Source: Verrucomicrobiaceae bacterium
GTDB taxonomy: Bacteria; Verrucomicrobiota; Verrucomicrobiia; Verrucomicrobiales; Verrucomicrobiaceae
Direction: 5' to 3'
DNA length: 64,000 nt
NCBI GenBank assembly: GCA_015075365.1
Contig: JABTUN010000004.1
Span: 62,001-126,000 of the forward strand
Of the stretch, positions 1 through 4,702 are shown piece by piece (the stretch's first letter is position 1; each line of letters begins with the position of its first letter). The notes below the pieces were generated by a model. That model was given only the letters and a program-made list of their open reading frames with translations, was not told the origin of the DNA and ran no database searches. Made by a program: the position numbers and the translations under genes.

Positions 1-2163
1 GAGCGTCTTGATTTGATCCAGCGCCGACTTGTAGCTCCGCGCCCACAGCCCGTGGAGAATCATATTCGACGTCTCAAAGCCGAACCAGTTGATGCCCGTG
101 ATGCGCACGGCATTGCCTGCGGCATCCACGATTTGGTTGCCACTCGTGGAGAGATAGCCGGAGCCGACTGGAACCGCTGTGCGCACGATGGTCACATCGC
201 TGATCGAAATTGTCGGTGGCGTGCTGACGACGATGGACAGCGATTTCGTCGCCGTTCTCGCGGGCGAGGAGCTATCGCTCACCATGACGGTAAAGCTGGC
301 TGTGCCTGCGGTCGTCGTGGTGCCGCTGAGCATGCCTGCGCTGCTGAGGGTGAGGTTGTTTGGCAAAGCGCCGCCGCTGATCGACCACACATACGGCCCC
401 GTGCCGCCCGTGGCGGTCAGTGTTTGCGAATAGGCCCCTCCAACCGTTCCACCGGGAAGAGAGTTGGTGGTGATCGTGGGATTCGTGGTGCTGCCGCCGA
501 CGGAGATGCCATTGAAGATGTAGTTTGTCGGCGGCTGCGCTTGATCTGCTGGATTGGCACTGAATCCCACGGCCACGCTGCCACCAACAGGAATGGCGGC
601 GTTGTAACCGACGTTTTGAACGATGTAGTGCGTGCCGACCTGGCTGACGAGCGTGGCATTCCAAAGGTTCGTGATAGTGCCGGTGAAATCGAACTCGAGC
701 GTCCACCCATTCACCGCCGTATCGCCGTTGTTGGTGACGGTGATCTCGCCGTTGTAGCCAGTCGCCCAGGTGCTGGTGATGGCAAAACTCACCGCGGTGC
801 TCGCGGTGAAGGCTGGATAGGCATTCTGCACCAACTGCACAAACTGGGCCTGAAACCAGCGGCCTGAGACCGGCGCATTTGGTAGGGCGCCGGTGGGCTG
901 GTTGCCATTGAGAGAATTGCCCTGGTAGGTGGGATCGCACATGCGGTCGAAGCCTTTGCCATCGGGGTTGTCAGGGCCGGTAGGAATAAGCGAGCTGGAG
1001 CCGTCCGACTCGCCGGGCGGCTTCACCCAGACGAAGGCGTCGTAGTTCGGCGAGGGATTCGCCACCGGCCTCGCGCCGATGCCTGCGCCGCTTTGATTGC
1101 CCCAGTTTCCCTTGTGAATGCGGCGGTCGAGCGTGGTTGCCCGCACGAAGGTGTTTCGCACGGTGGAGGTGCTCGGGCCGGTGGGTCGCGCAGAGCCGCC
1201 CCAGCCGTTGCGCGAGGTGTCGAGCAGCAGGCCCACGCTCGCCGGATAGGCATTGGTGCCGGTGATCAGAGCGGTGCGCAGCGCATTGGCAAAGCTGCGC
1301 TCCTCGATGTGGTCGTTCCAGTCATACCAGACCGGTGTGGAGCGCACGGGCTGGCCGCCGATCATCTGATTGGCGGTCATGTAGGGCTCCACGAAGACAT
1401 TGTAGTTCGCCGTGTTGCTGATGAAGCCGTCCACCTTGCCATTTCCGCCCGGAATGCCCGCGCCGACCTGTTTCAGCAGATTCGCGAAAGGTGTAAGATT
1501 GTTCGACCAGCCCAGCCAGCCCGCATGAGCCACGTCAATGTAGGCATAGGTGTTCGTCAGCGAGCGCAGCGTGCCGATGGCATACTGCACGCCTTGCACA
1601 TAAGCTCCGGTGGTGTTGGCCTCCGCCACTCTCGGAAAGCTCAGGTTCGTGATGAGGTTCGGCAGTGAATCCGGCTCGATCACCATCACGATGCGCAGCC
1701 CGCTGTATTTCGCCTGGCTGATGATGCTGTAGATGACATCAATGTATTCCGTCTTGTAGCGATGCAGCCCGTTTTGCGCGATGAGCAGCTCCCCATTCGA
1801 CGCCAGCGCCGAGCCATCGCGGTTCGGCAGATTGTAAATGACGATTCCGATGGCATTCGCCCCCTGCTCCAATGCTTGATCCAAATGCCCCGCCAATCCA
1901 CGCCGATACGATCCCGTCCCGTTCACCGCCGCGATGGTATCCAGCCACACAAACGTCGGATGATCCGCCACGCGGCGCATCTGCTGCCCCAAGGCGCCGC
2001 CTTGCAAGTTCGCCGCCGCATTCACCGCCGCCACATAGTCCACGTTGCGGTAAAAAGTCGCGCCGACGAAGGGATTGTCGAGATGCGTGCCGTTTTGCGC
2101 TTTCGCTAGAGTGACGTAGGCGGAGAAAGACAGGATGAAAATGAAAGGGAACAGACGGCTCAT
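1..2163 (-). CDS. Secreted multidomain cellulase GH6-CBM2-Ig-GH5 (C-terminus beyond window)
   Basis: The frame is open without a stop from an ATG at 2163 to the left edge (721 codons). Residues 1-22 form a signal peptide ending AKA. Residues about 27-450 are a GH6 (cellobiohydrolase/endoglucanase) domain with [10 protein letters not shown] and [10 protein letters not shown], which carry the family's Tyr, the Asp of RD and the catalytic-acid Asp of EPD, plus [12 protein letters not shown] near the end. Residues about 452-551 resemble a CBM2 cellulose-binding module ([19 protein letters not shown]). An Ig-like linker follows (about 557-645). At the edge [16 protein letters not shown] is the start of a GH5 domain. 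Two cellulase families around a CBM in one polypeptide suggests a bifunctional secreted cellulase. The start overlaps the upstream stop as ATGA, so translation is probably coupled. The GH5 active site is not visible. Confidence 0.9.
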
Positions 2164-4160
2164 GGTTCAAAGGGTGGATAAGCATTCCGAACCAGCTCCT
2201 CGAACTGCGCCTGGAACCAGCGCCCGGCAGCAGGTGCATCCGGCAGGGCATTCGTCGGTGTGTGACCGTTTAAACCATTGCCTTTGTAGGTCGGGTCGCA
2301 CATGCGGTCGAAGCCTTTGCCTTCGGGGTTCTCGGGGCCTTTGGGGATGAGTTTGCTGGAGCCATCCGAGTACCCCGGCGGCTTTACCCACACGAAGGCA
2401 TCGTAGTTCGGCGCGGGATTCGCCATCGGACGTTCGCCGATGCCTGCGCCGCTTTGGTTGCCCCAGTTGCCTTTGTGCGTGCGTTTATCGAGCGTGCTCT
2501 CGCGAACGAACGTGCGCAGATCGGTCGAGGCACTAGGCCCTGTCGGCCGTTTGGGGCCGCCCCAGCCGTTGCGCGAGGTATCGAGCAACAAGCCAAGTGT
2601 CGCGGGATAAGCATCCGCGCCGGTGATGAGTTCCTCACGCAGTGCATTGGCGAAACTCTGCTCCTCAATGTGATCGTTCCAGTCATACCAACCTTTGAGC
2701 GAGCGCACCTCACGCCCCTTCACCTTTTGATCCGCTTTCATGAAGGGCTCCGCGAAGACATTGTAGTTCGCCGTGTTGCTGATGAGGCCGTCCACCTTGC
2801 CATTGCCGCCGGGAATGCCTTTGCCGACTTGTTTCAGCAGCTCCGCGAAGGGTTTCAGGTTGCTCGACCAGCCGAGCCAGCCTGCATGGGCCACATCAAT
2901 GTAAGCGTAGGTGTTGCGGAGCGAGCGCAAGGTGCCCACCGCATACTGCACGCCCTGTACATAGGTGCCCGTGCGATGCGCCTCCGCCACCCGTGGGAAA
3001 CTGAGGTTGGTGATCAGATTGGGCAGCGAATCCGGCTCAATGACCATCACAATGCGCAGCGCGGCATACTTCGGCTGGTTCAGCACTTTGAAAATCGCGT
3101 CGATGTATTCCGTCTTGTAGCGATGCAGCCCGTTCTGGGCGATAAGCAGCTCGCCATTCGACGCCAGTGCCGATCCATCACGGTTTGGCATGTCGTAAAT
3201 GACGATCCCGATGGCATTTGCCCCCTGAGCGAGCGCCGCATCCAAATGGCCCGCCAGACTGCGCTCATACGCCCCCGTGCCATGCACCGCCGCGATGCTG
3301 TCCAGCCACACGAAGGTCGGAAACTCCGCCACACGCCGCATTTGCCGCGCCAGGGCTCCGCTATGCCGATCCGCCGCCGCGTTCACCGCCGCCGTGTAGT
3401 CCACGTTTCGATAAAAAGTCGCCCCCACAAAGGGATTGTCCAAATGCTCGCCCGCAGGCGTCGCCGTGCCGCTCAAGAGCTTTGATTCATCCGCAGGCAA
3501 CTTGCCGATGACACCCCGCTCAGCCGCCAGCACCACCGCCTCACCCGCAGCGAGCGGCACGGTGTCATTTTTGTGCGGTCTCACCTCCACCTGCCCCTCA
3601 AACACATGCACTTCGACGTTCTGTGCCGCAGCCGCCAGAATGCCAAATCGCGTGCCGAGGTCCACCACACGCCCGGCGGGCGTCTCGACCGCAAAACCAC
3701 GCGCCGCAGGCGGAACAATCGCCGTGAGCCTTCCGTGGATGAGCCTTGCTTCCGAAGGCCCGAGCCGCACCACACTCGCAGGGCCATACACCGTGACCTC
3801 GGCCCCATGATCGAAATCCAGCGTCATTGAGCCGCTCTCGATCACCAGCGGCGGTGCCTCGTTTGTTCCGGACCACCATTGAAGCCATACAAAGCCCACC
3901 AAAATAACCGCAGCAGCCGCAACAACCGGACGCCAGAAGAGCCATCGCCCCATGACTTTTGCTTTGGGCGCGATGAGCAGCCCTGCGGCCACCTGTGCCC
4001 GCAGCCCCATTTCGACATCCTGATGGACAAACCACCAGCGCCTGGCCTCGGCGTCGTTGCGGAGGTTGGTTTGGAGTTCCGCGTGTTCCTCCGGCGTGAG
4101 TGAGTCCGCCGCATGGGCGGTAAACAGCTCGGACAAACGTTTCTTCTGCTCTGAGTTCAT
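2160..4160 (-). CDS. FecR-type anti-sigma-like membrane protein fused to GH6 cellulase
   Basis: The protein has 666 aa from an ATG at 4160, chosen because it overlaps the sigma-factor stop as ATGA; an in-frame start 11 codons upstream is less likely. Residues 1-75 are a polar cytoplasmic segment. Residues about 76-96 are one membrane helix. Residues about 105-215 are FecR-like ([35 protein letters not shown]). Residues 240-666 are a complete GH6 domain with Y322, D328 of [11 protein letters not shown]377 of [10 protein letters not shown] and [10 protein letters not shown]. Fungal GH6 has Cys after RD; here it is Gly. The catalytic Asp residues are kept, so the domain could be active or a cellulose sensor. 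FecR proteins normally control a cognate ECF sigma factor, which lies directly upstream. The GH6 part closely resembles that of the downstream gene, suggesting tandem duplication. Confidence 0.92.
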
Positions 4161-4702
4161 GAGGCCTGCTCCTGCAATCGGTTCACCACACAATCCGCCA
4201 TCAGGCGGCGGAGAATGGCGAGCTTGTTATAAAGTGTGCGTGGGGCGCGGCCCATCCGCGCTGCCAGTGCGGTGATGTCGCCGTGGCCTGCACACGAGGC
4301 CCGCAGCAGGCGGCGGTCATCCTCCCGCAGCGATTCAAAACACGAATCCAGCGCCTCCATGCGCTGCTCCTGGTGCTTCAAATCCTCCGCCCGCTCCTCG
4401 GCAAGCAAAGCGAGCAAATCGTCATCGAAATGCGAAGCCGATCGCGAAGCGGTGCGCTGAAAGACCTTGGCCTCATAGAAACAGATGGTGCTGGCCCAGG
4501 CCATGAAATCCGTGCCGCTCTCAAACGACCCATACTTCTGCCACATGAGCACCGACGCCCGCTGGAGCACATCCTGCGCATCGTGCCAGCGTCCCAGCAG
4601 CGACAACAGATAGCCCAGCAGCTTGTCATGTGATGCCGTGAGCAGTCCCACGAACTCCTCGTGGCGATGATTGGGCGTTGGGGCTGGATCTGAGTCTTCC
4701 AT
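4157..4702 (-). CDS. ECF RNA polymerase sigma factor, partner of the FecR-GH6 protein
   Basis: The 181-aa protein has a region-2-like segment (HDAQDVLQRASVLMWQKYG, about 40-58) and a C-terminal region-4 helix-turn-helix (DITALAARMGRAPRTLYNKL). It resembles the Rhodopirellula/Verrucomicrobium-type ECF group, which commonly sits next to FecR-domain genes. Its stop overlaps the FecR-GH6 start as ATGA, so the two are expected to be made in a fixed ratio. The inferred role is to activate this cellulase operon when the FecR-GH6 partner releases it. No promoter could be assigned with confidence. Confidence 0.88.
   Translation of the reverse strand: MEDSDPAPTPNHRHEEFVGLLTASHDKLLGYLLSLLGRWHDAQDVLQRASVLMWQKYGSFESGTDFMAWASTICFYEAKVFQRTASRSASHFDDDLLALLAEERAEDLKHQEQRMEALDSCFESLREDDRRLLRASCAGHGDITALAARMGRAPRTLYNKLAILRRLMADCVVNRLQEQAS

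Follow-up and report, generated by a model that had tools for sequence, protein, structure and literature searches.

What does a cellulase domain do on the outer end of an anti-sigma factor? The question is raised by a locus in the genome of a Verrucomicrobiaceae bacterium, analysed here in a window of 64,000 nucleotides (contig JABTUN010000004.1, or C4, positions 62001-126000). Across window positions 2160-4702 and on past the window edge, three genes follow one another on the minus strand in the order extracytoplasmic function (ECF) sigma factor, FecR-type anti-sigma factor fused to a glycoside hydrolase family 6 (GH6) domain, and secreted GH6-CBM2-GH5 cellulase. The original prediction, made from the sequence alone, held that the GH6 domain senses or processes cellulose and that the signal passes through the membrane to release the sigma factor. 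The answer that we favour, and regard as rather probable, is that the three genes form an autoregulated operon in which a repurposed GH6 domain senses cello-oligosaccharides in the periplasm by binding them.

The arrangement itself stands as it was first described, with only the start codon and the ends refined. The sigma factor (181 aa; 4157..4702, minus strand) belongs to the Sig-70_gvs1 family, to which it is assigned by 19 close orthologues and by a match to TIGR02989, the Rhodopirellula/Verrucomicrobium family model, that scores 141.2 bits against a cut-off of 124.55 and covers model positions 1-158 of 158. Its gene overlaps that of the transmembrane FecR-GH6 protein (666 aa; 2160..4160, minus strand), identified by Pfam matches to FecR and GH6, structure prediction and fold search, which in turn overlaps the cellulase gene; both junctions are ATGA overlaps. 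The ATG at 4160 forms the first of them and is taken as the start of the anti-sigma gene, the TTG at 4193 given in the open reading frame (ORF) list being an upstream extension. The cellulase gene (minus strand) starts at 2163, occupies window positions 1..2163 and extends about 1.6 kb past the window edge; it is complete in the whole genome (L003:10393-14163), where it encodes a protein of 1256 aa with a signal-peptide-like N terminus and the Pfam order GH6-CBM2-He_PIG-GH5-Calx-beta. The 666-aa fusion lies in a single open frame within a 678-kb contig, which, together with a nonsynonymous divergence (dN) of 0.143 and a synonymous divergence (dS) of 0.959 between the two GH6 copies, excludes a chance ORF or a fusion artefact.

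The fusion protein combines a conserved anti-sigma architecture with an unusual outer end. Pfam places FecR (PF04773, 31.5 bits, cut-off 24) at residues 136-192 and GH6 (PF01341, 288.6 bits, over the cut-off) at residues 263-604. An AlphaFold2 model of residues 1-245, built from 40 sequences, begins with a cytoplasmic three-helix domain (residues 1-59; 3984..4160, minus strand), whose helices at 3-17, 23-35 and 37-58 reach a pLDDT of about 96-98. Its best Foldseek match is RsiW bound to SigW (TM-score 0.75, root-mean-square deviation (rmsd) 1.2 over 48 columns), the few other PDB matches including MucA, ChrR and RslA, with RseA from a second aligner; in a PDB profile search RsiW is the first non-repeat match (E 0.024), after a designed repeat protein. 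The original prediction had staked its sensing model on a sigma-binding fold in this N-terminal segment, and a fold of that type is what the modelling returned. On this model the domain would bind the sigma factor. A single transmembrane helix follows (residues 79-96; 3873..3926, minus strand; hydropathy maximum at 73-97), and then a periplasmic beta domain of the FecR/PupR CJM type (residues 100-233, modelled beta structure 105-221; 3462..3863, minus strand). The latter matches PupR (6ovk_R) at a Foldseek E of 1.5e-8 and, with 131 residues aligned at an rmsd of 2.6, a VIA Z of 18.6; BDI_1681 (4m0n), also an anti-sigma factor, reaches a Z of 17.4, and the next unrelated match falls to 5.9. One membrane helix and a FecR-like domain, as foreseen from the sequence, are hence both present, and the GH6 domain occupies the remainder (residues 239-666; 2163..3446, minus strand). 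So arranged, the protein would reside in the inner membrane with its GH6 domain in the periplasm.

Whether this domain is an enzyme or a sensor turns on its active site. The closest solved structure is that of the cellobiohydrolase HmCel6A (6k52, E 8e-130), and, as in HmCel6A and the 4avn exocellulase, the GH6 domain is whole and retains every catalytic-site Asp: D328, D377, D422, D527 and D599 are invariant with respect to 27 homologues, and the Lys of the −1 subsite is also kept. To this extent the description of a full GH6 domain with its catalytic Asp residues was correct. What it had missed is that the otherwise invariant Glu of the −1 subsite is replaced by Tyr597 (codon TAC, 2370..2372, minus strand), a difference from both structures that adds to the anti-sigma attachment. 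The equivalent position is Glu in 27/27 other GH6 domains, the downstream copy (GAG) included, and since TAC and GAG differ by two bases, a sequencing slip is unlikely. By motif spacing, Tyr597 corresponds to E399 of Trichoderma reesei Cel6A (K593, Y597 and D599 against K395, E399 and D401), a residue that touches O6 of the −1 sugar (PMC6091422). This pattern fits a domain in which binding of cello-oligosaccharides is kept and cutting is poor, and loss of catalysis in the fused copy is inferred from it. As to the ligand, cellulose itself cannot reach a protein of the Gram-negative inner membrane, so that soluble cello-oligosaccharides are its likely substitute. Of the earlier alternatives, sensing is therefore the likelier; cellulose as the ligand is at odds with the periplasmic location, and processing became less likely with the loss of the −1 Glu.

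A functional precedent exists for such a blunted enzyme, the closest being RsgI6/SigI6 of Clostridium thermocellum. The GH10 outer domain of RsgI6 is very low in catalysis and has kept its binding; it is similar (57%) to Xyn10D, an enzyme of the regulon, most sigI/rsgI genes overlap, and regulation is linked to the substrate (PMC4711584). Both systems share a membrane anti-sigma protein whose outer glycoside hydrolase domain resembles an enzyme of its own regulon. They differ in that SigI is not an ECF factor and in that RsgI6 carries RsgI_N, no FecR and a GH10 rather than a GH6 domain, and sits at a Gram-positive surface; here, moreover, the matching enzyme is encoded within the same operon. 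Consistent with a separate family, the fusion protein has no Pfam match to the RsgI family at E 1, and its partner is an ECF sigma factor, not SigI.

The resemblance between sensor and enzyme can probably be traced to the neighbouring gene. Of 388 genomes sampled from the phylum and 387 in an overlapping sample from the order, only this one yielded GH6, and it did so twice, as adjacent copies. The fused and downstream GH6 domains share 79% protein identity and 77% DNA identity (dN/dS 0.15), over a stretch that begins close to where the mature secreted enzyme is expected to start, and the fused domain probably arose by tandem duplication of the one in the downstream enzyme, as far as comparison of sequences can tell. 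The nearest outside GH6 domains come from a planctomycete (72%), a Planctomycetia metagenome-assembled genome (MAG; 70%) and a Chloroflexi MAG (65%), a distribution that suggests horizontal gain. In the Chloroflexi MAG (L082 2793-6281) the 65%-identical GH6 is C-terminal in a secreted protein of 1162 aa, an order unlike that of the GH6-first cellulase. The fused copy has evolved faster than its neighbour (branch 0.20 versus 0.10; 22 versus 12 polarised changes). Nevertheless, it is not freely drifting, given a total dN of 0.143 and a ceiling of about 0.3 for the dN/dS of the fused branch, obtained by placing all amino-acid changes there and splitting dS evenly. No second FecR-GH6 fusion was found among 115 relatives, genome contigs, plasmids and viral contigs, the genome-contig scan using short exact peptide patterns that reach close relatives only, with other phyla beyond their scope; nor does a FecR or gvs1-type sigma gene stand beside GH6 in any of 28 other loci.

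If the GH6 fusion has so far been met only once, the exchange of outer modules is common. A set of 45 FecR proteins, six from this genome and 39 from related genomes, was chosen by matches to the fusion protein and is not a neutral census; all 45 match FecR, and their outer modules are LamG in 26, CBM96 in 10, PA14 in one and GH6 in one, the fusion. Most of these modules are carbohydrate-binding-type folds, so that carbohydrate-type outer domains on membrane anti-sigma proteins, known at the outset from clostridia, turn out to be usual in this FecR family. A sigma-size ORF ends or starts within 80 bp upstream of 32/39 FecR genes from the other genomes. On the evidence of these sequences, the outer modules are swapped and the sigma-side end is kept. 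The FecR-LamG and FecR-CBM96 proteins with Sig-70_gvs1 neighbours share with the fusion the sequence family, the gene order beside a sigma-size gene and the FecR core; they differ in a non-catalytic carbohydrate-binding-type outer module in place of a glycoside hydrolase, and mostly belong to other sigma clades. No description of FecR-LamG or FecR-GH proteins in this group was found among the open-access papers searched. Beside sigma-size genes, the FecR-LamG, FecR-CBM96 and FecR-PA14 proteins of the order are candidates for sensing polysaccharides, and a numerous set, of which the search likewise returned no description.

The sigma factor belongs to a compact clade. Its 19 close orthologues are 47-71% identical to it, and beyond a gap the next sequences reach at most 36%. 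An anti-sigma gene could be recovered at 14/19 of the orthologous loci; its start, taken as the ORF start called mechanically, falls in the interval from 37 bp before to 10 bp after the end of the sigma gene. The original prediction had looked for an adjacent ECF gene in homologues of the fusion, which is so far a singleton; in these 14 loci ECF and anti-sigma genes do adjoin, the outer domains of the relatives not being GH6. The clade anti-sigma proteins have the N-terminal domain and the transmembrane region in common, and outside the membrane they carry FecR-LamG or else a jelly-roll-like domain that has no name. Several of the orthologous pairs (loci L138, L143, L144, L145-L149 and L153) are followed by large cytochrome-like proteins and no cellulases. 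These proteins have CxxCH N termini and are by eye of the PSCyt/DUF1553 type. Their presence in place of cellulases indicates that the sigma clade serves different operons.

Immediately ahead of the sigma gene is the promoter-like element CGGTCA-N17-CATACA (4710..4738, minus strand), which is conserved across the sigma clade: 18/20 upstream regions of the clade contain a related spaced motif (mean 0.08 and maximum 2 in 500 shuffles), although several of these regions are near copies and the independent cases are fewer than 20. The strict CGGTAA form, from which the window site is one base off, is found in 13/20 (0 in 500 shuffles) and is absent (0/15) before the more distant gvs1 sigma genes. 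Because the sequences around the motif differ, it is better seen as a footprint than as simple kinship. In the upstream regions L138-L157 the clade motif reads YCGGTAA-N15-17-CATACA and is often very close to the start codon. Its placement hints at autoregulation and near-leaderless transcripts. A scan of the genome with the promoter pattern returned five sites against three in the reversed control, and the window site is the only extragenic one; a wider regulon was considered and rejected, the other four sites lying inside open frames at a count near that of the control. Judged by this sequence context, the likely target of the sigma factor is its own operon.

Taken together, these features can be assembled into a working model. 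The sigma factor would drive the operon through its own CGGTCA-N17-CATACA promoter, and the three-helix N-terminal domain of the anti-sigma protein would hold it at the inner membrane. The secreted GH6-CBM2-GH5 enzyme would cut cellulose into cello-oligosaccharides, some of which would enter the periplasm and bind in the substrate tunnel of the fused GH6 domain. Binding would change the periplasmic part of the protein, the anti-sigma factor would be cleaved or inactivated, with an RseP-type intramembrane protease as the likely executor, and the freed sigma factor would raise expression of the cellulase operon in a local positive loop. Regulated proteolysis is known from E. coli, where it involves FecR and RseP (PMC8144685), and from RsgI (PMC12203970). 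Both the identity of the ligand and the release of the sigma factor by it are inferred.

Other explanations of the locus deserve to be weighed against this sensor model. The organization of PupR invites the most conventional of them, namely FecR-type cell-surface signalling through a TonB-dependent transducer in which GH6 would be incidental. PupR consists of an anti-sigma domain, a transmembrane helix, a CJM domain (110-238) and an STN domain (250-324), and the fusion protein has its anti-sigma domain, single membrane helix and CJM beta domain arranged likewise, as well as an adjacent ECF partner. In contrast to PupR, however, it has neither an STN subdomain nor a TonB-dependent transducer, and GH6, from residue 239, takes the STN position. 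PupR requires CJM plus STN for binding of its transducer (PMC7186176), yet STN gave no match anywhere in this genome in a search in which four control genomes were positive, and the operon contains no transducer gene. In spite of the PupR-like CJM domain, then, canonical signalling is hardly credible here, and GH6 in the STN position of a genome free of STN matches points to a FecR-type anti-sigma factor without a canonical transducer. A different objection is that the GH6 tail might be a mere passenger of the tandem duplication, the sigma factor being controlled through the FecR domain by another signal. The fusion is a singleton, the neighbouring domain was probably duplicated, and the fused copy changes faster (22 versus 12; 0.20 versus 0.10), as would be expected of a passenger; but a dS of 0.96 with a dN of 0.14 speaks for long retention under constraint, and since most of the 45 FecR proteins carry a carbohydrate-binding-type outer module, such a module appears to matter. 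We consider this explanation improbable.

Slightly better placed, and still unlikely, is the proposal that the fused GH6 works as a cellodextrinase, active in the periplasm and anchored to the membrane, whose catalysis or product is itself the signal. The intact active-site Asp residues and −1 Lys, and the purifying selection on the fold, speak for such an enzyme; the Tyr at a −1 site that is Glu in 27/27 other domains and whose counterpart E399 contacts O6 (PMC6091422), and the low activity and preserved binding of the RsgI6 GH10 domain (PMC4711584), argue in the other direction. The sensor model, in turn, has to accommodate a number of points that weigh against it. E597Y may alter activity without abolishing it, and ligands for a periplasmic GH6 presuppose an uptake route. 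The fusion is a singleton and offers no comparative proof of function, and the tree that groups the two local GH6 copies gives their sister relationship a support of only 0.67. Individual Foldseek E-values are weak (0.9) for the short helical N-terminal domain, whose anti-sigma assignment is based on agreement among methods. The site-2 protease family PF02163 is present in the genome but also in all control genomes, and so lends weak support to the proteolytic step.

Other genes of the window lie beyond the operon. The stretch 6779-8100 (plus strand) holds a second ECF sigma gene, for a protein of 196 aa with a weak TIGR02989 match, and a 244-aa gene that shares 4 bp with it; the product of the latter has one hydrophobic segment and is probably the cognate anti-sigma factor. 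Next to this pair, at 6088-6606, a heavy-metal-binding-like protein is encoded. A small ORF of 96 aa (8110-8400, minus strand) resembles by eye a RelE/ParE-type toxin.

On a more general level, it is possible, and we put it forward tentatively, that the locus exemplifies a Gram-negative sensor that arose when a duplicate of the controlled enzyme's catalytic domain was joined to a FecR anti-sigma factor and lost much of its activity through a blunted active site, a self-matched sensor of cellulose products that would be one case of FecR outer-module exchange and a counterpart of clostridial RsgI. The papers found contain no description of polysaccharide sensing through the many FecR anti-sigma factors of this group. 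In the present case the fold of the sensor itself allows a guess at the ligand and, the promoter being predicted and the operon comprising three genes, the sensing model is directly testable. The locus suggests that a sensor may originate by duplication of the enzyme that it controls, in parallel with clostridial RsgI6 and with different sigma and anti-sigma families.

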